Assembly (NCBI RefSeq): GCF_943181415.1 | Contig: NZ_CALPBZ010000002.1 | Coordinates: forward strand, 124,001-188,000 | Source of the DNA: Microbacterium sp. Marseille-Q6648 | Lineage (GTDB): Bacteria > Actinomycetota > Actinomycetes > Actinomycetales > Microbacteriaceae | Direction of reading: 5' to 3' | Length of the DNA: 64,000 nt | Shown: piece after piece, positions 4,601-26,974 of the stretch | Numbering within the stretch: the stretch's first letter is position 1 | Layout: each line of letters begins with the position of its first letter | Program-made: the position numbers and the translations under genes | The notes under the pieces: model-generated | Databases searched by the model: none | Seen by the model: the letters and a program-made list of their open reading frames with translations, nothing else | What the model was told of the DNA's origin: nothing

Positions 4601-6463
4601 CGGGGCGCCGAGGGAGTGGCGGACCTGCTGCGCCTGCTCGGCCCCCTCGACGCCGCCGAGGTGGCGCTGCGGCTGCGACCCGCCGCCGACGTCGACGACG
4701 AAGCCGACGCGCCGATGCCGGCCACCGAGGCCGAGGCGGCCGCACTCCTGGACGCCCTCATCACCGCCCGCCGGGCCATCCCCGTCACCCTCGCCGGGCA
4801 CGCGCGGGTGGCCGCCATCGAAGACGCCGGCCGCCTGCGCGACGCCCTCGGCGCCGCCCTTCCCGTCGGCATCCCGAACGCCTTCCTCGAACCCCTGGCC
4901 GACCCGCTCGGCGATCTGGTCGCCCGGCACGCGCGCACCCACGGTCCGTTCCGGACGGATGCCGTCGCCGAACGCCTCGGCATCGGCATCGCCGTGGCGC
5001 GCCTGACCCTGCAGCGCCTCGAGGCCCAGGGGCGGCTGGCCAGCGGCTACTTCCTCCCCGCGGCCGGCGCGGGCGCGGACGACCAGACGGAGTGGTGCGA
5101 CGCCGAGGTGCTCCGCCGACTGCGGATGCGCTCGCTGGCGGCGATCAGGGGAAGCGTCGAACCGGTCCCGCAGGATGCGTTCGCGCGGTTCTTGCCCACG
5201 TGGCAGCACGTGACGCGTCCGCTCGAGGGGGTCGACGGGGTGGCGGCCGTCATCGAGCAGCTCGCGGGGGTGCCGCTTCCGGCCAGCGCCTGGGAGTCGC
5301 TGATCCTGCCCTCCCGCGTCGCCGACTACACGGCGGGCATGCTGGACGAGCTCACGTCGACCGGCGAGGTCGTCTGGACCGGGCACGGCGCTCTTCCCGG
5401 ACGCGACGGCTGGGTGGCCCTGCACCCGGCCGACGGCCTCACCCTCACCCTCCCCGAGCCGGAGGACGACGTCGCCTCCGACTCCCTCGACGCCCGCGTG
5501 CTCGCCGCGCTCGACGGTGGCGGGGCCTACTTCGCCGGGCAGCTGAAGAGCCTCGCCGATGCGGAGAACGAGCAGTCCGTGGTCGAGGCGCTGTGGCGGC
5601 TGACCTGGGCGGGCCGGGTGACCAACGACACGTTCGCGCCGGTGCGGACCCTGCTCGCGGGTGGCAAGACCGCGCACCGCACCGCTCGCCGAGCTCCTCG
5701 CGCCCGCATGTACCGTGGCGCCGCCGTCCGCACGGTCGCAGCCGCGACGCCGGCGCGGCCGTCGGCCGTCGGCGGCCGCTGGTCGCTGCTGCCCGCCCCC
5801 GAGGCCGACCCGGTCCTGCGGGCGACGGCCACGGCGAGCCTGCTCCTGGACCGCTACGGCGTGGTCACGCGCGGGTCGGTGCAGGCGGAGGCGGTGCCCG
5901 GGGGCTTCGCGCAGACCTACCGCATCCTCGCGGGCTTCGAGGATGCCGGGCACTGCCGTCGCGGGTACGTCATCGAGAAGCTGGGAGCTGCCCAGTTCGC
6001 CGCGTCCGCCACGATCGACCGCATCCGCGAGTTCGCCTCGGCGGGCGACCCGCCTCCGAAGCGCGCCGTCACCCTCGCCGCGACCGATCCCGCCAATCCG
6101 TACGGCGCCGCGCTGGTATGGCCCGCCCTGGAAGGGGTCGGCCACCGCCCCGGGCGCAAGGCCGGCGGGCTGGTGGTGCTCGTCGACGGCTTCCTGACGC
6201 TGTACCTCGAGCGCGGCGGGAAGTCGGCGCTCGTCTTCACCGACGACGACGCCGCCCTGGCGGCTGCCGCGCGCGACCTGGTCGCCACCGCCCGCACCCG
6301 ACGGCTGGACACCCTCACGATCGAGCAGGTGAACGGCGAGTTCGTCTACGGGACGGGCATCGGCCGAGCGCTGCGGGATGCCGGGTTCGTCGAGTCGCCG
6401 CGTGGCCTGACCCTCCGCCGGCTCACCGCCGGCGACGCCGCGCGAGAGGCCGCCCGTGCCTGA
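1607..6463 (+). CDS. lhr: Lhr-type ATP-dependent DNA helicase
   Basis: Large superfamily 2 helicase (1618 aa) acting in DNA repair. The first RecA-like domain has Walker A APTGSGKT (Lys63) and a DEVH box (Asp195-His198). After a Pro/Asp/Gly-rich insert (residues about 285-340) comes the second domain, with the arginine motif QRIGRAGH near residue 473. The remaining 1100 or so residues form the long Lhr-specific C-terminal region. The length matches full bacterial Lhr proteins rather than the short archaeal form. The stop overlaps the start of the next gene, a Nei-type glycosylase, by 8 bp, so the two are translationally coupled and probably share a base-damage repair task. The ATG at 1607 is chosen for its -10 spacing. 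Confidence 0.95.
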   Translation: MSAPQTSGGGPDATHAVLERFGPATRDWFRGAFPRPTDAQVGAWEAISAGRNALVVAPTGSGKTLSAFLWAIDRVFREPYDTGGSRARRGGDSGTTPRAGRTRVLYISPLKALGVDVERNLRSPLVGIGQAARRLGIDVPDVTVGVRSGDTTSSDRRKLVQTPPDILITTPESLYLMLTSQAGETLRDVHTVIVDEVHAVAATKRGAHLAVSLERLDALRRAHDPAAPAAQRIGLSATVRPIDEVARFLGGAAPVEIVAPRATKAFDMRVIVPIEDMLNPPPPPGSAPAPGPRDGADRDGADRDAADTAPAIDEDWFADRDGTGRTAGPDGAGYDGGAEATGSVWPHVEEAIVDRILAHRSTIVFCNSRRLAERLTGRLNEIYEERLGIPAPADAAPPAAMMAQAGSSAGAAPVLAKAHHGSVSKEQRAQVEEELKSGILRCVVATSSLELGIDMGAVDLVIQVEAPPSAASGLQRIGRAGHQVGEVSRAALFPKHRSDVLHTAIVTERMLAGRIEAIAIPQNPLDILAQQTVAACALGPIDVEGWYETLKRSAPFRSLPRSAYEATLDLIAGRFPSDEFAELRPRVVWDRDAGTLTGRPGSQRIAVTSGGTIPDRGLFGVFVAGESQNARVGELDEEMVYESRVNDVFTLGTTSWRIVEITHDRVNVVPAFGQPGKLPFWHGDGIGRPAELGEALGRFSREVSAADPAKAHERLEEAGLDERAIGNLMSYLAEQREATGTLPTDRSLTVERSRDEVGDWRVILHSPFGMQVHAPWALAVNARIRERLGVEGSAVASDDGIIARIPDATAEPPGAELFVFDPDELEQIVTEEVGGSALFASRFRECAARALLLPRRNPGRRSPLWQQRQRSAQLLEVARRHPTFPIILETLREVLQDVYDVPALLGIVRGIGERRIRLVETTTTQPSPFARDLLFGYVGAFMYEGDSPLAERRAAALSVDPALLSELLGKIEMRELLDPDVIAQFEREAQRLDPDRRVRGAEGVADLLRLLGPLDAAEVALRLRPAADVDDEADAPMPATEAEAAALLDALITARRAIPVTLAGHARVAAIEDAGRLRDALGAALPVGIPNAFLEPLADPLGDLVARHARTHGPFRTDAVAERLGIGIAVARLTLQRLEAQGRLASGYFLPAAGAGADDQTEWCDAEVLRRLRMRSLAAIRGSVEPVPQDAFARFLPTWQHVTRPLEGVDGVAAVIEQLAGVPLPASAWESLILPSRVADYTAGMLDELTSTGEVVWTGHGALPGRDGWVALHPADGLTLTLPEPEDDVASDSLDARVLAALDGGGAYFAGQLKSLADAENEQSVVEALWRLTWAGRVTNDTFAPVRTLLAGGKTAHRTARRAPRARMYRGAAVRTVAAATPARPSAVGGRWSLLPAPEADPVLRATATASLLLDRYGVVTRGSVQAEAVPGGFAQTYRILAGFEDAGHCRRGYVIEKLGAAQFAASATIDRIREFASAGDPPPKRAVTLAATDPANPYGAALVWPALEGVGHRPGRKAGGLVVLVDGFLTLYLERGGKSALVFTDDDAALAAAARDLVATARTRRLDTLTIEQVNGEFVYGTGIGRALRDAGFVESPRGLTLRRLTAGDAAREAARA

Positions 6464-17902: not shown

Positions 17903-18301
17903 CTACGCGAAGAGCATCAGGACGAATCCGACCAGCGGCAGCGTGCCCTGCAGGAGCGCCGCGCGAAGATAGGCGCGTCCCGTCGTGGTCAGGACGAGCG
18001 CCGCGGCGGCCATCGATCCGAGTGAGAACAGCACGAGGGTCCGGCCGGCGACCTCGGCCGCCGTGCCGGACGCGCCCGCCCAGAACAGCACGATCCCGAT
18101 GACCGCGCCGATCGCGAGGAAGAGGTTGTAGAAGCCCTGGTTGTATGCCATCGGGCGCACGGTGTCGGCAGCAGCCTGGTCTTTGACGCCGAAGCGCCGC
18201 CAGATCGCGGGCCGGCTCCACTGCACGCTCTCCATGACGAAGATGTAGACGTGAAGCAGCGCGGCCAGCGCGGCGACGACCGTGGCGATGATCGCGATCA
18301 T
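17903..18301 (-). CDS. DUF1304 membrane protein
   Basis: Integral membrane protein of 132 aa with four hydrophobic segments (residues about 4-24, 55-75, 85-103 and 113-131). The conserved DUF1304 features are visible: the first helix with LHVYIFVMESVQW, then FGVK and the YNQGFYNLFLA motif. No function is known for the family. The gene is divergent from the LysR-type protein at 18337; only 35 bp separate the two ATGs, and both have -10 boxes inside that gap. Confidence 0.88.
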   Translation of the reverse strand: MIAIIATVVAALAALLHVYIFVMESVQWSRPAIWRRFGVKDQAAADTVRPMAYNQGFYNLFLAIGAVIGIVLFWAGASGTAAEVAGRTLVLFSLGSMAAAALVLTTTGRAYLRAALLQGTLPLVGFVLMLFA

Positions 18302-18308
18302 GAGGCGA

Positions 18309-18329
18309 ACGATACGCCCGGGCTACGCT
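18309..18329. promoter_or_regulatory. Back-to-back leaderless promoters
   Basis: On the minus strand TATCGT (18309-18314) lies 7 nt before the DUF1304 ATG at 18301. On the plus strand TACGCT (18324-18329) lies 7 nt before the ATG at 18337. The two -10 boxes are 9 bp apart, so polymerases serving them would exclude each other. Confidence 0.5.
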
Positions 18330-18336
18330 GAACGAC

Positions 18337-19096
18337 ATGGCGAAACGCGGCGGTGCCCCCCGCAGACCCCCACGACCGGGGCGTCCGGGCGGCGCGGGGC
18401 GCACGGCCGGTCGCGGCTCGACCCCGAAGACCGGGGCCTCGAAGCCCTCCCGTCCTCGCTCGCGCACGGCACCCGATGCGCCAGCGCCGTCATCGCCCCT
18501 TCCCCCGGCCCTTCCGCCTGGGCGCCATCCCCGGCGCCACCCCCGGCAAGTGGATCGACGTGTGGCAGGAGCGGATGCCGGGCGTCGATCTGGTCCTCGA
18601 ACCTCTCGCGGTGGCGGAACAGCTGCACGCGCTCGCGGAACGGACGGTCGACGCGGCCCTGGTGCGCCTGCCCCTGGAGGCGGATGACGTCCACGTCATC
18701 CGCCTCTACGACGAGATGCCGGTCGTGGTCGCCGCCGCCGAGTCTCACCTCACCGCGGCGGACGAGCTCTCCCTCGCCGACCTGGCGGGCGAGATCGTGC
18801 TGACCCCGCGCGACGACGTCCTCGGCGTGATCGTCCCCGGCGCCGTCCCACCCGCCTTCGGCGTCCCGGCCGACACCGCCGAGGCCATCGCGACCGTCGC
18901 CGCCGGCGTCGGGGTCGTCATCGTGCCGATGTCGCTCGCACGCCTGCACCGCCGCAAGGACGTCGAATACCGTCCCCTGGCGGACGGCCCGGTCTCGACG
19001 GTGGCCTTGGCCTGGCCTGTCCATGACCCGTCGCCCTTCGTCGAGACATTCATCGGCATCGTGCGGGGACGCACGGCCAACTCCTCGCGCGACTGA
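18337..19096 (+). CDS. LysR-type substrate-binding-domain protein, apparent frameshift
   Basis: The ATG at 18337 opens a basic, Pro/Gly-rich N-terminus (MAKRGGAPRRP), but this frame loses sense near base 18500. The rest of the protein, from FRLGAIPGATPGKW to GRTANSSRD, lies one frame further on. It looks like a LysR substrate-binding domain without its DNA-binding half, a type I recall from Microbacteriaceae beginning with the same N-terminus. Removing one base near the C-run at about 18500-18504 would join the two parts. Alternatively translation could start at ATG 18476 in the second frame. It is either a sequencing error or a recent mutation. Ligand unknown. Confidence 0.7.
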
Positions 19097-19121
19097 CCGC
19101 AACCCGCCCGCACGAAGAAGA

Positions 19122-19155
19122 GGGATGTCGCCGACCTGGGTCTCTGCGACATCCC
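19122..19155. terminator. 10-bp hairpin between convergent genes
   Basis: GGGATGTCGC and GCGACATCCC form a perfect 10-bp stem with a 14-nt loop, 25 bases after the LysR-type stop and before the facing TPR-CHAT gene. It could end transcription from either side, or be the first stem of the structured element that follows. Confidence 0.55.
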
Positions 19156-19156
19156 C

Positions 19157-19256
19157 CGGAACGACCCGCGACGACCGCGCGTTCTTCGCACCCCCAGCGG
19201 TCGTCGGTGCCCCCAGTGCCCGGGGACCCCACCTCCGAGCTGCGTGGGTCGTTCCG
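19157..19256 (+). ncRNA. Candidate structured RNA with C-rich loops
   Basis: An outer 11-bp stem, CGGAACGACCC (19157-19167) with GGGTCGTTCCG (19246-19256), encloses a 10-bp stem CGACGACCGC (19169-19178) with GCGGTCGTCG (19197-19206). The inner loop holds CCCCC, and a second CCCCC run follows in the remaining multiloop. Two perfect nested stems in 100 bases are unlikely by chance. Unpaired C runs on the plus strand recall the actinobacterial 6C RNA class, but I cannot confirm a match. It might instead be a complex terminator or the target of a regulator. No clear promoter is visible. Confidence 0.4.
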
Positions 19257-19283
19257 AAGTGAAGGAGCCCCGTACCGGCGCCC

Positions 19284-19293
19284 TGATACATCG
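19284..19293 (+). repeat. TGATACATCG copy, left of CHAT/S8 unit
   Basis: TGATACATCG, preceded by CCC, lies 25 bases beyond the TPR-CHAT stop. The same 10-mer preceded by CCG occurs at 24434-24443, upstream of the sigma gene, in the same orientation. The pair frames the four-gene unit. Confidence 0.5.
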
Positions 19294-19318
19294 ACCGCGG
19301 AGAAGTTCTTCCGGTTCG

Positions 19319-21784
19319 TCAGAACCCCGCCCCGTGGGACTGGAAGGGCGCGATGATGCCGGTTCGAGCGGATGCCGCGGCGAGCGCTTCGGCGGGCGCG
19401 AGACCCGCGGCGAGCTCCGCGTGCATCGCCCCCAGCAGCTCGCACGCAGCGTCGTCGGCGACGACGACCGGGGCGGCCACCACGCAGCGGGTGCCCGCGT
19501 GGAGCCAGACGCGCGTCATGCCGATCGCCTCCTCGCCCCATCTCACCGACGAACGGCCGACTTCGCACGCCGACAGCACGACCGTGTCCGGCACGGTCGG
19601 GATGCGGTCGATGTCGTAGCCGAAGAGGGCGCCGTCGGCCAGCTCGAGGCCCGAGAACAGCGGGTTGTCCACCGCGTGCCGGCCGTGGGCCGCGATGTGC
19701 AGGACGTCCACCTCGCCGGCGAGGCGGGTCACCGCGTCGACCCGGGCGTCGGCGTCGTCGAGCACCGTCGCCGCCGGCCACGACCGCGCGGCCCGCTCGA
19801 TCTCCTCCCGCCCGCGTGATACCCGCGGTCCGACGGCGAACCCCGCGCGGGCGGCGGCGGCGGTGCCCGCCCGCAGCGCCACCCACCTCGTCGCCGAGAC
19901 GGCGAGGGTGAACACGCGGCCGCGCAGGGCCGGCAGCATCCCCCACGGCATGCCGTTGAGCACCCCGGGAGCGGTGATGACGAGCCGGCGCGCGTCGGTT
20001 CCCGCGAGCGCCGGCTCGACCAGGGCGCGAGAGAGGGTCTGCAGCCGGGCGTCGAGGGAGTCCTGCACGACACGGGCGAGGGGACCGGTGCGCACGGCGG
20101 CGCTGACGTCCAGGTCCGCCCGCAGCCCCGCCGAGGCGGAGCGCACGAGCGGCCAGTGGGGGATGTCGTGCACCTGCGCGCCCCGCGCGGTGACGACGAC
20201 GCATGCGACGCGCTCGGCGCTCCAGACGTAGCTGAGCACCGCGGTGTCGTCGTCGAGGGCGGCCGCGACGGCATCCATCGAGGCATGCTCCTCGACGCCT
20301 CCTCCCCCGGTGTCGCTCCACTGCCGGCGTCGCAGGCGGTCGTGCAGCTCGACCGCCCGGGGGCTCGCGAGCCAGTCCGCGTCGCCGGCGTCGGCGCGCA
20401 GGGCACGCAGCTCCGCCAGGTCGGCCGCGGCGGCCGAGTCCGGCGAGGGACGCACGGGCACCACCCGCTGACTGAAGTGACGGGCCCGCTCGGACCATTC
20501 GAAGAGCACCTCGGGGCGCCCGGCGCGCAGCGCCGAGGACAGCCCCGCCATCATGAGCGGCCGCCCGTGCATGACCACGGCGCTCTGCAGGTCGAGGCTG
20601 GCTGCGCTGACCTGCCACCGGGCCAGCTCGTCGAGCCCCTCGGCTGCGCGGCGCCGCGCCGGGGCCTCGCGTCCGGTCGCGAGGGCATCCCGCACCCGCA
20701 CGCGATGGGCGAGGAGCCGTACGTCGATCGGCGCGTCGCGGGGAAGCCGGGGCGCGCGGGCGGGCAGCACACCGCGCAGGCGCCCTGCCAGCTCCACGGC
20801 GATCGCATCGGCGGCGAAGCCGCGCGCGCGCAGGGACGCCGCCACCTGGACGATCTCGTCGGCGGGCGGCAGTCGCCGTGCCGTGGGCGCCGGGAGTCCG
20901 TCGCGGTCGACGACGCCGTCGGCGAGCTGCGCGCGCACCCGGACGCCGTCCGCGCGCGCGGCCCACGCCTCGCTGTCGACCGTGCGGAACCGGCGTGCGG
21001 CGGCGGCCGCGGTCCGCGCCGCGGCCGCGGGGTCGTGGGCGAGGAGGGAGCGGGCCAGGTGCAGCTCGGCCTCGCCGCGCGCCTGCTGCATGCGGTGGGC
21101 GCCGAAAACGCGCGCCACGCGCTCCAGAGCGCGCTCGGCCTCGGTGGTGAGCCCGGCATCGCGCAGCACCTCGGCGCGGTCGAGATCGCAGATGGCGACG
21201 TTGACGGCCGAGGCGTGCTCCATGACACCGCGCGCCTCGGCCATCGCCTCGAGAGCACGCACGAGGTCGCCCTCGAGCAGCGACACGTAGCCGGCGTTGT
21301 GGACCGCCATCGCCCGCTCGACCTCGTCGCCCGCGGCGGCGTAATCGGCGGCTGCGCGCTCGAGATCGGCGCGGGCGGCGGCGAAGTGGCCGGCCTGCAT
21401 GTGCGCGACGCTGCGGTTGATGAGCATGGGCGTGCGGTGCTCGCGGTCGTCGCCGATGCGCGCGATCCCCCGGTCGAACCGGGCGACGGCGGCGGCGAGG
21501 TCGCCGCGCTCGAGGGCGAGCAGCCCGAGCTGTCCTTCGAGCATCGCCGATGTGGCCGGCGACAGCCCCCGGTGCCGGAGGGCCTGCAGACACATCTGCT
21601 CCGCTGTCGCGGGGTCCCCCTGCCGGATGACGAGCGCGGCGAGCGATCCGGTGATGCGCGCGCTCAGGTCCGCGTCGGACGACCGGTCGGCCGCGAGCTG
21701 CAGGAGCCGGCGCGCGGCCGCGTTCCGGCCGGCGTTCAGATGGCCCCGTCCGCGCTTGTACAGCTCCGTCGCCGAAAGCGTCAT
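19319..21784 (-). CDS. TPR-CHAT caspase-like protease
   Basis: Cytoplasmic protein of 821 aa. Residues about 5-330 are helical TPR-like repeats (for example ARRLLQLAADRSS, AVARFDRGIARIG, AHNAGYVSLLEGD-type helices). A helical middle leads to a C-terminal CHAT domain (about 500-815), a caspase/separase-related cysteine protease fold. The catalytic pair is present: His700 in IAAHGRH and Cys740 in LSACEVG. No signal peptide. It is the last gene of a four-gene minus-strand unit, 21 bp after the subtilisin. TPR-CHAT proteins elsewhere are activated by a partner and cut specific proteins; a target here is not known. TGAGGGG just before the ATG may be its ribosome site. Confidence 0.9.
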   Translation of the reverse strand: MTLSATELYKRGRGHLNAGRNAAARRLLQLAADRSSDADLSARITGSLAALVIRQGDPATAEQMCLQALRHRGLSPATSAMLEGQLGLLALERGDLAAAVARFDRGIARIGDDREHRTPMLINRSVAHMQAGHFAAARADLERAAADYAAAGDEVERAMAVHNAGYVSLLEGDLVRALEAMAEARGVMEHASAVNVAICDLDRAEVLRDAGLTTEAERALERVARVFGAHRMQQARGEAELHLARSLLAHDPAAAARTAAAAARRFRTVDSEAWAARADGVRVRAQLADGVVDRDGLPAPTARRLPPADEIVQVAASLRARGFAADAIAVELAGRLRGVLPARAPRLPRDAPIDVRLLAHRVRVRDALATGREAPARRRAAEGLDELARWQVSAASLDLQSAVVMHGRPLMMAGLSSALRAGRPEVLFEWSERARHFSQRVVPVRPSPDSAAAADLAELRALRADAGDADWLASPRAVELHDRLRRRQWSDTGGGGVEEHASMDAVAAALDDDTAVLSYVWSAERVACVVVTARGAQVHDIPHWPLVRSASAGLRADLDVSAAVRTGPLARVVQDSLDARLQTLSRALVEPALAGTDARRLVITAPGVLNGMPWGMLPALRGRVFTLAVSATRWVALRAGTAAAARAGFAVGPRVSRGREEIERAARSWPAATVLDDADARVDAVTRLAGEVDVLHIAAHGRHAVDNPLFSGLELADGALFGYDIDRIPTVPDTVVLSACEVGRSSVRWGEEAIGMTRVWLHAGTRCVVAAPVVVADDAACELLGAMHAELAAGLAPAEALAAASARTGIIAPFQSHGAGF

Positions 21785-21805
21785 CCCCTCAGCATGGCCC
21801 GCCGC

Positions 21806-23275
21806 TCACTCCTGACGCGAGTGGTCCGCCTGCGCGAGGTCCTCTCGCACGCGCGACACCGCCTCGTCCCACACGAGGCCTTCGCCGCGCATCCGCGCGA
21901 TCCTCCCCGCGACCACGGGCGCCGCGAACGACGTGCCGCTCCACACCGCGAAGCCCCCGCCGAAATCGTCGGCGTCCAGAGTCTCGCGACGACGGTGGAA
22001 CCGGTCGTCCCGCATCCCGGCCTGCACGCTCCCCTCGAACGACACCGGCACGGTCGAGACGAGCGATACGCCCGGCGCGTAGACATCCACCCAGTCGCCG
22101 ACGTTCGAGAACATCGCCACCGATGTGCCCGAGGGGTTGAGCGCCCCCACCGCCAGGTGTCCCGGATCATCGGGAGCCAGCGAAGCCGGCGCCGCCGGAC
22201 GATCGGTGGCCTCGTTGCCCGCCGAGCAGACGACGACGCACTCCGTCCCCCGGATCCTCTCGAGCAGCCGCCCGATCTCCGACAGCGTCTGCGCCTCGCC
22301 GGGGGTCTCGTGGAAGAAGCCGAACGACAGGTTGAGCACCGCGACCGGAGTCTTCGCCATGAACTGCAGGAGGCGCCCGAGGGCGGCGATCACTTCGCTT
22401 TCGAGGATGATGCCCTCGCCGTCTGCGATGCGGATCGGGAGGATGCGCGCGTCGGGGCACTCCTGCCGGATGAGACCGGCGATGAACGTGCCGTGGCCGG
22501 CCGCATCGTCGAGGAGTCCGTCCAGCGGCTGACCGAGCGTGGGATGCCGCTCGGGGTCGGTGGCGGGGTCATCCAGCCCGATCGGCTCGCCCCCGTCGAG
22601 GTACGGAGGCACCAGGACGTCGCCGCGGAACCACGGATGGGTGCCGCACCCGGTGTCGAGGATCGCCACCACCGGACGATCCTTCGCCGACGACCTGCGG
22701 GGCTCGGGTCCCACGTAGGTCACCGGCTGCCTCCCGCCGAACCCGAGGGCGGCATAGCTGTCGATGCCCACTCCGGCGGCGTTGGCCTTGAAGGGGTTCG
22801 CCTTGAACGGGTTCGCCTTGAACGGGTTCGCTTTGAACGGATTCGCCTTGAACGGGTTCGCTTTGAACGGATTCGCCTTGAACGGGTTGAGGCCCATCGA
22901 GTCCGTGCTGATCACGTGGTTCAGGCTCACACCGTCGCCGTTGAGCCGCGCCTGGCGCAGGATCTGCCACGCGTCCGGCGTCGTGGCCGGCCGCGTGCGG
23001 TCGGGGGCGGTGGTGATCCTCACCCGCACCGACTGCGCCGCCCCCGTCGTCCGCTCGCTCCACTCCGGCAGAGGGTCCGAGAGCCCCGGGAACTCCAGCT
23101 GCCAGCCGGCCGCCCTCGCGAGCTCTTCGATGTCGCCGAGGTCGTTCACGGTGCGTCGCTCGGTGTCCACGAGAAGCTCGTCGGCGACGTAAAGGGTGGG
23201 GAAGACCGTCCCCTTCGGCTCCCCCGCCGGATCGAGCTCCGCGATCCGCAGTGTCTCGCTGTCCTGCCAGCCCAT
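21806..23275 (-). CDS. S8 subtilisin-like protease with NPFKA repeats
   Basis: Serine protease of 489 aa with a complete triad: Asp207 (AILDTGCGTHP), His261 (GHGTF) and Ser449 (SGTSFAAP). Residues 1-129 form an N-terminal domain with no signal peptide or membrane segment, so unlike most subtilases it should stay in the cytoplasm. Residues 130-164 are seven exact NPFKA repeats joining that domain to the protease. AAGAGGGG lies upstream of the ATG at 23275. The gene sits between the small protein (34 bp) and TPR-CHAT (21 bp). The linker could be a site where another protease, such as CHAT, releases the enzyme; this is a hypothesis. Confidence 0.92.
   Translation of the reverse strand: MGWQDSETLRIAELDPAGEPKGTVFPTLYVADELLVDTERRTVNDLGDIEELARAAGWQLEFPGLSDPLPEWSERTTGAAQSVRVRITTAPDRTRPATTPDAWQILRQARLNGDGVSLNHVISTDSMGLNPFKANPFKANPFKANPFKANPFKANPFKANPFKANAAGVGIDSYAALGFGGRQPVTYVGPEPRRSSAKDRPVVAILDTGCGTHPWFRGDVLVPPYLDGGEPIGLDDPATDPERHPTLGQPLDGLLDDAAGHGTFIAGLIRQECPDARILPIRIADGEGIILESEVIAALGRLLQFMAKTPVAVLNLSFGFFHETPGEAQTLSEIGRLLERIRGTECVVVCSAGNEATDRPAAPASLAPDDPGHLAVGALNPSGTSVAMFSNVGDWVDVYAPGVSLVSTVPVSFEGSVQAGMRDDRFHRRRETLDADDFGGGFAVWSGTSFAAPVVAGRIARMRGEGLVWDEAVSRVREDLAQADHSRQE
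22784..22888 (-). repeat. Seven 15-bp repeats encoding NPFKA
   Basis: Seven head-to-tail units of 15 bp each encode Asn-Pro-Phe-Lys-Ala. They differ only at synonymous sites (AAC/AAT, CCC/CCG, AAG/AAA, GCG/GCC), so the peptide is conserved while the DNA has drifted. This implies selection on the peptide. Confidence 0.95.
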
Positions 23276-23309
23276 GCGATTCCCCTCTTCTGGCGATCCG
23301 TCTCGCCGG

Positions 23310-23780
23310 TCACACCTCGAACTGCGGCGTCTGGAAGTCCTTCAGCTCGCCGCCGGCGTCGCGGACGACGATCCGCAGCCGCGAGACGCCGGGCGGAACA
23401 TCCTCGAAGGCGAACCGGCCGTGCTCACTCGGATCGGCCGACCATTCGCGTTCTCCCTGCACGACCCGCACGGCGAGGGCCTCGGCGTCGGACCAGCCGT
23501 CGATACGGCGTCCCCCGCCCTCGGTCGCCGTCACGTGCAGCAGCACGGTGGTCTGCCCGTCGCTGAACTGCAGCGTGGCCGTATCGGTCTCACCGCGGAC
23601 GGCGGCGAGCGCCGACCCTTCGACGAGGGTGAGCAGCGCGTACTCGCGCGACAGATCCTCCACGGCGACAGCAGCGACCATCCGGTCGACCAGATCGGCC
23701 GGTACCGGATCGACCCGCTCCCACACCGCGCGCAGCCGTGCGAACAGGGCCGCGTCGGCGGCGGAGTCTTCATCCACCAT
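23310..23780 (-). CDS. Small protein of unknown function in CHAT/S8 unit
   Basis: 156-aa protein I do not recognise. The first half is acidic and helical (LFARLRAVWERVDPVPADLVDRM), the second half is beta-rich and ends in FEDVPPGVSRLRIVVRD, a pattern seen in carboxypeptidase-regulatory-like or prealbumin-like folds. No signal peptide or membrane segment. The ATG at 23780 has GGAGGGAGGA upstream and overlaps the sigma-factor end by 11 bp, so the two are coupled. A gene in this place, next to a sigma factor, is often its inhibitor; that would make it a candidate anti-sigma or adaptor, but no known anti-sigma motif is visible. Confidence 0.75.
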   Translation of the reverse strand: MVDEDSAADAALFARLRAVWERVDPVPADLVDRMVAAVAVEDLSREYALLTLVEGSALAAVRGETDTATLQFSDGQTTVLLHVTATEGGGRRIDGWSDAEALAVRVVQGEREWSADPSEHGRFAFEDVPPGVSRLRIVVRDAGGELKDFQTPQFEV

Positions 23781-24387
23781 GGTCGTCCTCCCTCCACCCG
23801 GCACCGGCCAGAGCGGTGCGGAGCTTTCCCAGACAGCGCTGCCTCGTCGGGCCGATGGAGCCCACCGGCATCGACAGGTCCGCGGCGATGCGGGCGTAAT
23901 CGGGGCGTTCCTCGAACGCGACGATGCGCAGCAGCCGCCGGCAGCGGTCGTCGAGCGTCCCCACCGCATCCCACAGCCGACGGGTCTCGTCGTCGTGGGC
24001 GGCGGTCTGCTCGGCGGATTCGTGGACGGGAAGGTGCGGTTCGAGGGTCGCCGTCTCGGCGGGGTCGGCGCGGCGCTGCAGCTTGCCGACGCGCCATGCC
24101 TCGCGCCTCGCGCACATGGTCAGCCACCCCGACACCGCCTGGGCGTCCACGATCGACGCGTGGCGACGAACGAGCGTCAGCCACGTCGTCTGCACGACGT
24201 CTTGGGCGAGGGCGTGGTCGAGGCCGTAGGAGCGCACGACGTGCCACAGCGGCGGAGTCATCAGCCGCACCAGGTCATCCATGGCGCGCGCGTCGCCCTC
24301 GCGCCAGCGCACGAACAGCGCGGCCGCTCGCTCCCAGCGCGGCGGCTCGGCTCCTTCGACGGGCGCGTCGGGTTGCGCATGCGTCAT
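23770..24387 (-). CDS. ECF-like RNA polymerase sigma factor
   Basis: 205-aa sigma-70-family protein. Region 2 spans about residues 25-95 (AMDDLVRLMTPPLWHVVRSY, then AQDVVQTTWLTLVRR and WLTMCARREAWR). Region 4 (about 145-200) contains the helix-turn-helix YARIAADLSMPVGSIGPTRQRCLGKLR. No anti-sigma-like extension. It is the first gene of the unit, so it could drive its own operon. ATG 24387 is preferred because a CACAAT hexamer lies 7 nt upstream; an ATG three codons earlier (24396) is possible. It diverges from the amidotransferase at 24527. Confidence 0.9.
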   Translation of the reverse strand: MTHAQPDAPVEGAEPPRWERAAALFVRWREGDARAMDDLVRLMTPPLWHVVRSYGLDHALAQDVVQTTWLTLVRRHASIVDAQAVSGWLTMCARREAWRVGKLQRRADPAETATLEPHLPVHESAEQTAAHDDETRRLWDAVGTLDDRCRRLLRIVAFEERPDYARIAADLSMPVGSIGPTRQRCLGKLRTALAGAGWREDDHGG

Positions 24388-24394
24388 GACGCCC

Positions 24395-24400
24395 ATTGTG
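24395..24400 (-). promoter_or_regulatory. Candidate leaderless -10 of sigma gene
   Basis: CACAAT on the minus strand lies 7 nt before the ATG at 24387. The first base departs from the usual T. TGTATC a little further upstream is an alternative. Confidence 0.3.
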
Positions 24401-24433
24401 TCCACACCGATACAGAGTGCGATAGGGGGCCCG

Positions 24434-24443
24434 TGATACATCG
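24434..24443 (+). repeat. TGATACATCG copy, right of CHAT/S8 unit
   Basis: Second direct copy of the flanking 10-mer (12 of 13 bases match when the preceding three are included). It lies 38 bases beyond the outer sigma ATG candidate. Confidence 0.5.
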
Positions 24444-24513
24444 CGCGGCCGCCGTTCGCGGCATCCGATGACGAACGACGTCGGCCGCCGCCGGCACGTC
24501 GCCGGGCGCGGCC

Positions 24514-24519
24514 TAGAAT
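24514..24519 (+). promoter_or_regulatory. Leaderless -10 of amidotransferase gene
   Basis: TAGAAT lies 7 nt before the ATG at 24527, with no ribosome binding site between. Confidence 0.5.
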
Positions 24520-24526
24520 CTTCGGC

Positions 24527-25288
24527 ATGACGACCGCTCCGCTGCTCTACGTCTGCGCGCGGCCGCAGCAGGACGCCGCGCACGCCGAGTACGAGTCCTT
24601 CCGTCAGGCGATGGGGCTGGCGACGTCGCAGCTGGACCGCCTCGACCTGGTGCGCGAGCCGCTCCCCGGGGACGTTCTCGATCGCCACAGCGGCATCGTC
24701 GTGGGCGGGAGCCCCTTCAACGTCACGGATCCGGAATCGACCAAGACCGACGCTCAGCGCGGAGTCGAAGCGGGGCTCGAGCGGATCGCCGCCGGCATCG
24801 CCTCGGGAGACGGACCCGCGGCGATGTTCACGTGCTTCGGAATCGGCGTGGTGACCCGGATGCTGGGGGGCGAAGTCAGCCGCGCCTTCCCCGAAGACAC
24901 CGGTCCGGTGACCGTGGCCCTCACGTCCGCGGGAACCCGCGACCCCCTCTTCGGCGAGCTCGCGCCGCGCTTCAAGGCGCTCACCGCGCACAAGGAGGGG
25001 ACGGGAGTCCTGCCTCCGGGCGCGGTGCAGCTGGCCTCCGGCAGCGGGTGCCCGGTCCAGGCGTACCGGATCGGCGACCGCCTGTACACCACGCAGTTCC
25101 ACCCCGAGCCGACGCCCGAGGCGTTCGTGGCGCGCATGACGGTGTACCGCAACGACGGCTACTTCGACGCCTCGGCGTTCGACGAGGTCGCGGACCGCGT
25201 GCGCGCGGCACCCGTCAACGAGCCGCAGGAGCTCCTACGGCGGTTCGCGCGCCGATTCGGCCCTTCCCCGAGCGACCTTCCCGCGTAG
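24527..25288 (+). CDS. Class I glutamine amidotransferase-like protein
   Basis: 253-aa protein with a class I (triad) amidotransferase fold. The nucleophile is Cys103 in MFTCFGIGV; the usual elbow is GxCxG, and here Phe-Gly-Ile-Gly follows the Cys. His192 and Glu194 lie in QFHPEP. The protein probably hydrolyses glutamine or a related amide and stands without a synthase partner, as in GMP-synthase-like stand-alone proteins. Cytoplasmic. Its 3' end overlaps the convergent TspO-like gene by 74 bp. The partner substrate is unknown. Confidence 0.85.
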   Translation: MTTAPLLYVCARPQQDAAHAEYESFRQAMGLATSQLDRLDLVREPLPGDVLDRHSGIVVGGSPFNVTDPESTKTDAQRGVEAGLERIAAGIASGDGPAAMFTCFGIGVVTRMLGGEVSRAFPEDTGPVTVALTSAGTRDPLFGELAPRFKALTAHKEGTGVLPPGAVQLASGSGCPVQAYRIGDRLYTTQFHPEPTPEAFVARMTVYRNDGYFDASAFDEVADRVRAAPVNEPQELLRRFARRFGPSPSDLPA

Positions 25289-26060
25289 ACCGCAGCCAGA
25301 AGACCACGCCGGCGACGAGGATCACCAGGGCCACCACGATGGCGGTGGCTCCGATCACGGCGCTCGGCGGCTCGTCGGCCAATCGGCCGACGGCCAGCCA
25401 CGACAGGCCCCACGTCAGCGCCAGCGTGGGCGCCAGCCGTCCCGACACTGCAGCGATGGAGACTCCGATCACCGCGACGACGGCGAGCACCGCGACGCCC
25501 CACAGGTCGGCGGCGTCCGCCCACGACGGATCGCCGATCTGCGTCAGCCACGCAGTGGTGTTCGCCACCGTGGCCAGCGTCACCCACCCGAGGTGCAGAC
25601 CGGTCACGCCGTCGATGAGGATGCGTCCCACCCAGCCGCGCGGGGGCGCCACGACGACCGCCCGGCGGAAGGTCAGGGCGAGCGCGATCAGCAGCACGAC
25701 GATCATCAGCACGGTCAGCGGCAGCGTCAGGAACTGCGCCGTCACCAGCCACAGGCCGTTGAGCACCATGGTCGCCGCGATCCACGGGCCGAGCGCCCGC
25801 TGACGCTCATCCGTGCGCTGCCCGGGCAGCGCCTGCCACACGGTATAGGCGATCAGTCCGAGGTAGATGACCGACCAGATCGAGAACGCCTGCGTCGCCG
25901 GAGCGAGGTACGACCCGTCGGCGTCGAGGGCTCCGTCCTGCAGATCCTGCACGGGAGTGCCCCCGAACAGGCCCGTTCCGACCATTGCGGCGATGAGCAT
26001 GAAGCACGCCGCCGCGATGACACCGATCTGGCGGACGACGTCACGCGGTTCACCGTTCAT
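25215..26060 (-). CDS. TspO/MBR-like (tryptophan-rich sensory) membrane protein
   Basis: Membrane protein of 281 aa with seven or eight hydrophobic segments. The AFSIWSVIYLGLIAYTVWQALP stretch near residue 62 and the later Trp-rich helices (LNGLWLVTAQF, HLGWVTLATVAN, LTWGLSWLAVG) resemble the tryptophan-rich sensory proteins of actinobacteria, which are longer than classical TspO. The role may be binding of porphyrin-like ligands or simply unknown. ATG 26060 has a -10 TAGGTT 7 nt upstream. The last 25 codons overlap the facing amidotransferase gene. Confidence 0.65.
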   Translation of the reverse strand: MNGEPRDVVRQIGVIAAACFMLIAAMVGTGLFGGTPVQDLQDGALDADGSYLAPATQAFSIWSVIYLGLIAYTVWQALPGQRTDERQRALGPWIAATMVLNGLWLVTAQFLTLPLTVLMIVVLLIALALTFRRAVVVAPPRGWVGRILIDGVTGLHLGWVTLATVANTTAWLTQIGDPSWADAADLWGVAVLAVVAVIGVSIAAVSGRLAPTLALTWGLSWLAVGRLADEPPSAVIGATAIVVALVILVAGVVFWLRSTREGRSGKGRIGARTAVGAPAAR

Positions 26061-26646: not shown

Positions 26647-26754
26647 ACGCCCTCCACCGCGGGCGCGGGCGCGGGCGCTGTCGCGGGTGCGGTCGGGTTC
26701 ACCCGCTCAGGCTAGCGCCGGTCTCCGTGGCGGGAGGTCGCGGGCAGGTCGAAC

Positions 26755-26812
26755 GCGAGCCGTCATGTGTGTCGGATGCCGCACCCCGAACCCGACAGAA
26801 CTGACGGCTCAC
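26755..26812 (+). repeat. 58-bp palindromic repeat, copy 1
   Basis: The element starts GCGAGCCGTCA and ends TGACGGCTCAC, so its ends form a 9-bp stem (GAGCCGTCA with TGACGGCTC) around about 36 nt. A near-identical copy (55 of 58 bases) begins 103 bp downstream. Confidence 0.85.
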
Positions 26813-26857
26813 AGACCGCCGCACCGCCCGCAGGGCCGGGCGGGCGCGAACTCGAGC

Positions 26858-26915
26858 GCGAGCCGTCACGCGTGTCGGATGCCGCGCCCCGAACCCGACA
26901 GAACTGACGGCTCAC
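26858..26915 (+). repeat. 58-bp palindromic repeat, copy 2
   Basis: Second copy. It differs from copy 1 at three places, all C/T or A/G changes. A third left end, GCGAGCCGTCAG, occurs at 26967-26978 across the stop of the alarmone synthetase gene. The 328-bp gap between genes (26647-26974) is mostly these elements; I see no gene in it. Confidence 0.85.
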
Positions 26916-26974
26916 GGAACCACGAGCTGCGGAGCCCGCGCCCCGACCCGCGCCCCGCCCCGCCACGCGAGCCG

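Follow-up and report, generated by a model that had tools for sequence, protein, structure and literature searches.

Proteolytic control without an anti-sigma factor has been proposed for ECF54, a group of extracytoplasmic function (ECF) sigma factors, given the carboxypeptidase, subtilase and CHAT proteins conserved in its genomic context, according to the ECF54 account of a 2022 review (PMC8999054), which cites Huang (2015) and Casas-Pastor (2021) for this neighbourhood. Proteolysis also meets a sigma factor in type III-E CRISPR (clustered regularly interspaced short palindromic repeats) systems, where Csx29 cleaves Csx30, the bound inhibitor of an ECF-like sigma factor (PMC10028731). The unit analyzed here lies in a stretch of 64,000 nucleotides (nt) from Microbacterium sp. 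Marseille-Q6648 (assembly GCF_943181415.1, contig NZ_CALPBZ010000002.1, positions 124,001 to 188,000), hereafter the window, whose numbering is used unless a locus or contig label precedes a coordinate; it consists of genes for a sigma factor (SIG), a small protein (SMALL), a subtilisin-family protease (S8) and a tetratricopeptide repeat (TPR) protease, TPR-CHAT. A preliminary description of this DNA had stated that no description of such a set was known; the set fits the ECF54 neighbourhood as presented in PMC8999054, and we file it as ECF54 by context only. The same description's account of type III-E, with a TPR-CHAT protease cutting the Csx30 that holds a sigma factor, agrees with that given in PMC10028731. 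The gene set itself is thus already known, and what is new here is a promoter-like motif, an RNA and an exchangeable second transcription unit, which turn a vague ECF54 proposal into testable claims. We give about even weight to the reading that the unit is an autoregulated ECF54-type sigma switch controlled by proteolysis, taken as a whole chain; autoregulation and the RNA are held with more confidence than the chain, and the order of cleavage events with less.

All four genes lie on the minus strand as one tight operon: SIG, an ECF-type sigma factor of 205 amino acids (aa; 23770-24387, ATG at 24387), SMALL (156 aa, 23310-23780), S8 (489 aa, 21806-23275, triad D207/H261/S449) and TPR-CHAT (821 aa, 19319-21784, H700/C740). 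The SIG stop and SMALL start overlap by 11 nt, and spacers of 34 nt (SMALL-S8) and 21 nt (S8-CHAT) follow, in line with the tight spacing noted in the preliminary description. Pfam scanning of the four products, with SIG taken here and in the NCBIfam scan in a longer reading from 24528, returns Sigma70_r2 (2e-7), Peptidase_S8 (6e-25) and CHAT (3e-26), with TPR models under their cut-offs, and NCBIfam assigns SIG to sigma70-ECF (3e-14). The catalytic residues had been named correctly beforehand and are conserved: all three S8 residues are present in 18 of 18 aligned proteins, H700 in 20 of 20 and C740 in 19 of 20, the sole miss being locus L028, where the stretch ends inside the gene. Over 60 loci, D207 is retained in 57, H261 in 60 and S449 in 58, and over 62 loci H700 in 60 and C740 in 59; the exceptions are all gaps, with no substitution. 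In the smaller alignments of 18 to 20 proteins the tails of the minus-strand loci L030, L033, L035, L037, L038 and L040 run past the stop codon and are wrong, the L026 row of alignment A6 begins upstream of the start codon, and the class-locus profiles were made after dropping overlong proteins from minus-strand loci, some others being kept. Inspection by eye reveals no hydrophobic N-terminus in S8 or CHAT, which fits the earlier view that both proteases lack signal peptides, and the four products show no membrane segment by eye.

The preliminary description had proposed co-occurrence of the four families across actinobacteria as a check, and the set does recur in genus, family and class, so that its assembly in the window is not chance. 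SMALL occurs in 26 of 58 relatives, 60 of 119 genus genomes, 9 of 199 family genomes and 56 of 394 class genomes, the last representing 30 of 137 genera. In a set of 67 loci, nearly all recruited through SMALL, 60 are complete, as are 17 of the first 20 loci fetched (tblastn), 76 of a set of 80 recruited by the SMALL profile (77 of them titled Microbacterium) and all seven loci taken from the family's other genera. Among the 60 complete loci the order SIG-SMALL-S8-CHAT is found in 48 and S8-SIG-SMALL-CHAT in eight; the remainder have CHAT divergent ahead of S8-SIG-SMALL (two), S8 divergent ahead of CHAT-SIG-SMALL (one) or S8 inverted between SMALL and CHAT (one). All 66 loci that contain both genes have SMALL immediately 3' of SIG and on its strand. 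L040 has CHAT and SIG with SMALL below threshold, and a weak SMALL was picked up there in the class-locus scan. The additional genes between S8 and CHAT in L028 resemble, by eye, an unrelated insertion. A contig titled Planococcus sp. APC 4015 (L164) also carries the unit, with a SMALL identity of 76%; its title is possibly wrong or the assembly mixed.

The upstream regions of SIG share a motif, TGTATCA followed 16 nt on by CTCY. In the window it reads TGTATCA-N16-CTCT (24414-24440, minus strand), about 52 nt ahead of the SIG start codon, and a second copy, TGTATCA-N16-CTCC (19264-19290, minus strand), stands 28 nt past the CHAT stop codon. The exact motif occurs three times in the 3.49-Mb genome, at these two places and at C2:438667, and never in the reversed control; allowing one mismatch adds no further site in the window. 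It is present in 59 of the 60 genus genomes with SMALL (the exception being G117) and in 8 of the 59 without (Fisher p 7e-24). Site totals are 146 in the former (reversed control 40) and 9 in the latter (control 36), and the reversed control shows no link to SMALL presence across the 119 genomes (p 0.71). In the 80-locus set the motif is upstream of SIG in 63 of 78 loci, and a site lies 4-73 nt past the CHAT stop in 64 of 72; in the other eight it is absent (five) or at 122, 240 and 475 nt. Among a further 43 loci a site lies within 650 nt of the CHAT stop in 34, at 16-29 nt in 27 of these, and the nine misses include L028, which is cut inside CHAT; the 80-locus set overlaps the genus genomes, and these two counts are not independent. 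Sites were also found in six of seven other family loci and in 9 of 19 class loci, in the latter generally ahead of the first gene of the unit. Position and co-occurrence together suggest that the motif is the promoter recognized by SIG, with predicted autoregulation. The candidate promoter is sharp, with 2.4 sites per unit-bearing genus genome (146 in 60) at fixed places, so the sigma factor, its targets and the switch are testable by a simple reporter.

Closer to the SIG start codon, and beside the ECF-like motif, is TGTGGACACAAT (24395-24406, minus strand, by eye), which ends 7 nt ahead of that codon; many relatives have TGTGNNCACA at a similar position, again by eye, and possible roles for it are a leaderless -10 element and an operator. 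The third exact motif of the genome (C2:438667-438693, L044) is about 50 nt ahead of a 49-aa open reading frame (ORF) that has a good ribosome-binding site and is followed by a 377-aa ORF. A conserved third target was considered and set aside: the 49-aa ORF has no Pfam match, and the similar-looking third site of another species (L118) precedes a different gene.

In Microbacterium the second copy of the motif, past CHAT, precedes an apparently new element: a structured RNA, by prediction, made up of a coevolving closing stem, inner hairpins and a GC-rich 3' hairpin. In the window the RNA spans 19118-19259 (minus strand) and is matched over its full length by model R1, for which it and ten other sequences were used; it has inner hairpins with UGGGG and ends in a terminator-like hairpin whose core, GATGTCGC...GCGACATC (19124-19153, minus strand), is the sole copy in the genome at up to three mismatches. 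Over 144 nt the window RNA folds with a z-score of -4.6; z-scores are mixed across 34 RNAs, with a mean of -2.1 versus -0.24 for random window stretches (standard deviation 1.3, n=60). Aligning 11 sequences yields a consensus of 30 pairs, of which 15 show compensatory change, and a second RNA group, also of 11 sequences and scoring weakly or zero with R1, yields 32 pairs with compensatory change in nine. The closing stem is missed by RNAalifold, its 3' arm aligning poorly, and was examined by swapping arms between RNAs (n=27): own arms pair at -18.0 kcal/mol versus -13.9 for swapped arms, with 0 of 20000 permutations as good, and a control segment gives -14.7 for both. The own partner is the best of all arms in 9 of the 27 RNAs. 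When the 3' arm is not chosen, 50 non-redundant RNAs of 98 give -19.4 versus -16.8 permuted, again with 0 of 20000; these permutation counts ignore shared ancestry, and the per-sequence swaps omit similar pairs. The sequence UGGGG[AG] occurs 2.03 times per 200 nt over 64 loci (six with none) versus 0.07 in random stretches, and its Gs are unpaired more often than those of other GGGG runs in the same RNAs (0.56 versus 0.36; n=85 and 117).

Model R1 matches 27 of 119 genus genomes at E<=0.01, three of them without SMALL (G003, G077 and G102), and 21 at E<=1e-4, of which 20 have SMALL, the exception being G003. Ten of these 21 were outside the training of R1, and in eight the match begins 5-6 nt past an exact motif; G085 and G110 have an R1 match and no exact motif at that place. 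No Rfam 15 model (4227 models) matches window positions 18000-26000 at E<=1 or five RNA loci at E<=0.1. A dispersed repeat was set aside because the 3' hairpin occurs once in the genome, and a coding gene is unlikely because the peptides of unrelated loci are unlike (best similarity 0.53); an ORF of at least 30 codons with a Shine-Dalgarno-like site is present in 22 of 50 non-redundant RNAs. L080 carries two tandem RNA copies (2589-2735 and 5633-5782), each with its own motif ahead. Could the RNA be a mere bidirectional terminator between convergent genes, next to a fortuitous promoter-like site? The window RNA does lie between CHAT and a convergent LysR-type gene, with a GC-rich hairpin at its end, and R1 has weaker opposite-strand matches at several loci. 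Nevertheless, a terminator is an improbable account of several helices with a coevolving closing stem, the UGGGG[AG] enrichment, the constant offset from the motif, tandem copies that each have a motif, and the similar sequence found by eye past a motif kilobases from CHAT in L136.

Outside Microbacterium, sites past CHAT or nearby precede protein genes. Directly past CHAT are a 105-aa protein in L107 and L108, with a weak ORF126-like match under cut-off, a 61-aa ORF in L220 and an LGFP-repeat protein in L225, and related proteins of 139 and 132 aa are convergent to CHAT in L221 and L222. In L223 and L224 the sites come as divergent pairs, one leading to a short ORF and SIG and the other to a short ORF on the opposite strand. 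The peptides between motif and SIG (L223:9165-9305, 47 aa; L224:5794-5904, 37 aa) end in TQPITVIRLP and TQPITIIQPA, that is, TQPIT[VI]I with a short tail, and look precursor-peptide-like by eye. In L114 a divergent site is ahead of the unit's own S8 gene and another ahead of a papain-like gene under the Pfam cut-off, and in L117, L122 and L124 a site is ahead of large ATPase regulators. Polysaccharide clusters adjoining the unit contain sites in two Microbacterium genomes (L035/L132 and L133); the clusters have genes for glycosyltransferases, a sugar transferase and a flippase-type protein, the last being the second unit in L035, and some leaders in L132, L133 and L035 have a GCATCCGGGCG hairpin in common by eye. 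In L134 (3257-3739 and 3927-5501), several kb ahead of the unit, a divergent motif pair sets an S8 protease with a carboxypeptidase-regulatory-like N-terminus opposite a 161-aa protein with LNPQPLPPK, a sequence found in one locus. Single sites are possibly chance, because 76 turn up with the reversed control in the 119 genomes. The replacement of the RNA by protein genes in other genera suggests a modular output, and neither a structured RNA apparently driven by the same sigma factor nor its exchange for protein genes was found in the open-licence literature searched.

The same variability could mean that S8, CHAT and the second transcript are all outputs, SIG turning on proteases together with lineage-specific cargo in response to a signal from elsewhere. 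S8 and CHAT do sit under the predicted SIG promoter, and the second unit varies by genus (the RNA, the 105-aa protein, the 132-139-aa proteins, the LGFP-repeat protein and the flippase-type gene of L035). Two proteases beside their sigma factor, one with TPRs, nevertheless resemble input as much as output, and we consider this account rather unlikely.

For SMALL, structure prediction gives two N-terminal helices (3-23 and 28-51) and an eight-strand beta sandwich (67-150), with a mean predicted local distance difference test score (pLDDT) of 82.6 and a predicted template modelling score (pTM) of 0.58. It has no Pfam match at E<=0.1, and its NCBIfam matches are weak, all to HscA/DnaK (best 3.5e-4, far below cut-off). 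SMALL is probably the "carboxypeptidase" of the ECF54 description in PMC8999054, because CarboxypepD_reg gives weak matches (best 6e-4) in 7 of 18 homologues and none in the window's own copy; of the published context, S8 and CHAT are thus found by Pfam and the carboxypeptidase part as this weak similarity. In the proteolytic switch SMALL is the candidate anti-sigma factor. The proteases might instead act on SIG itself and keep it low, SMALL serving as an adaptor or substrate carrier; this is the ECF54 proposal of PMC8999054 with SMALL added, and it is a serious minority possibility. That published proposal counts in its favor, as do the lack of an anti-sigma family match and the predicted beta-sandwich domain with weak carboxypeptidase-regulatory similarity. 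On the other side, SIG and SMALL are adjacent in every locus with both, and S8 and CHAT vary in place, orientation or presence. Constant adjacency with shifting partners is typical of sigma/anti-sigma pairs.

S8 has a distinctive feature in the linker N-terminal to its catalytic domain, a tandem array of seven NPFKA units (22781-22888, minus strand). The linker pattern was recovered in 42 of 54 loci tried (two of the 12 failures have no S8), and in 39 of the 42 linkers a unit with an NP[FYHL] core recurs in tandem at least three times, every 5, 6 or 7 residues; L036, L039 and L099 have degenerate repeats, and the L038 linker falls outside the pattern with GYGDGV. Unit types include NPFKA, NPFTG, TNPYGR, NPFGHKT, STNPYG, NPLTRG and NPYHSG. 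DNA identity among units of one array is 0.70-0.92 and the unit sequence varies between species, so that the repeats hold their position while their sequence changes, which is new here. Elsewhere NP[FYHL] occurs once in 20 SIG proteins, not at all in 19 SMALL proteins and 0.68 times per CHAT. Such fast-changing, position-fixed NP-aromatic repeats are a concrete candidate docking or cleavage site.

We propose that SIG drives the TGTATCA-N16-CTCY promoters and that SMALL, whose synthesis keeps pace with that of SIG, would hold SIG inactive in resting cells through its helical N-terminus. The TPR region would read a signal and activate CHAT; CHAT and S8 may work in series or jointly, with the repeat linker of S8 as a docking or activation site, and would destroy SMALL or its hold on SIG. 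Freed SIG would then transcribe its own operon and the adjacent second unit, whose motif positions are observed; in Microbacterium this unit is a predicted structured RNA about 140 nt long, and in other genera it consists of various protein genes. Several observations weigh against this scheme. No anti-sigma family match for SMALL was found in Pfam or NCBIfam, and the ECF54 proposal in PMC8999054 is proteolysis without an anti-sigma factor. L035 lacks S8, and five of the 67 loci have SIG-SMALL only, with no sign of either protease (L109, at a contig end, among them). The motif is missing upstream of SIG in 15 of 78 loci, 10 of 19 class loci have no site, including three g57 loci with the full unit, and with one mismatch allowed at least two sites arise in 6 of 100 shuffles of the window. 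As to the RNA, four of the 34 have a fold z-score of about 0 or above, RNAalifold covariation terms are small (about -1 kcal/mol), and R1 finds only the own genome among 199 family genomes and gives no match in G034, which belongs to the genus and carries the unit.

The preliminary description had also suggested that a cascade like that of Craspase (Csx29, Csx30 and CASP-sigma) may work here without CRISPR, with CHAT cutting the S8 linker or SMALL, and may serve defence or stress. Positions 8000-36000 of the window contain no CRISPR-like array: direct repeats of at least 23 nt no more than 120 nt apart comprise the S8 array and one two-copy family only, and the eight neighbour proteins scanned include no match to a Cas7-11/gRAMP effector. 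A coupling of proteolysis to a sigma factor is plausible, and the comparison with type III-E holds as logic; the searches gave no sequence match to Csx29 or Csx30, and a distant kinship may exist. The CHAT profile finds 39 PDB sequences at E<=0.01, which are TPR proteins and do not include Csx29, and the SMALL profile finds four at E<=1, Csx30 not among them. A Csx30-like SMALL was set aside on that miss and on its predicted fold of two helices and a beta sandwich. Against PADLOC-DB 2.0.0 the matches are all weak, S8 to subtilase (3e-9) and IetS (3e-6) and CHAT to BovA (0.02), with none for SMALL or SIG at E<=0.1, and of eight neighbour proteins one matches, a RelA/SpoT-type protein to PDC-S33 (1e-18). 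Adjoining the gene for that protein is a 67-nt direct repeat (26749-26815 and 26852-26918; 93% alike, 103 nt apart). Nine of the first 20 loci have the unit between shared GATase-like and LysR-type genes, a comparison in which the query labelled TNase spans a stop and is not a single gene. Nothing here points to defence: the missing Csx29/Csx30 match, the scant defence similarity in the unit and its scanned neighbours, the lack of a repeat array and the chromosomal neighbours shared by 9 of 20 loci lead us to set aside a defence role and to regard a Craspase-type defence system as very improbable.

Among known systems, the IetS-type defence proteases of PADLOC share the S8 domain, the profile match being weak. 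The IetS system includes a partner ATPase. Like RseA/DegS and RsiW, which are named in PMC10028731, the unit would release an ECF sigma factor by proteolysis of a partner, here as inferred; their anti-sigma factors are membrane-linked, whereas the products of the unit have no membrane segment visible by eye. ECF54 as described in PMC8999054 shares an ECF sigma factor, carboxypeptidase-domain, subtilase and CHAT proteins and the proposal of proteolytic control; the motif, second site, RNA, variable second unit and repeat linker of the present unit do not figure in that review's ECF54 account. With Craspase the unit shares a TPR-CHAT protease, a partner and an ECF-like sigma factor, and a link between proteolysis and transcription (PMC10028731), but Csx30 has 565 aa there and SMALL 156 aa, and the unit adds an S8 protease, has no repeat array nearby (8000-36000) and shows no sequence match. 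There is a slim chance that the SIG-driven structured RNA, through repeated UGGGGA loops binding TPR-CHAT, SMALL, S8 or a target RNA, tunes the proteolytic sigma switch. If so, the unit would be a CRISPR-free, RNA-tuned counterpart of Craspase in logic, with regulatory proteins replacing the RNA in other genera.

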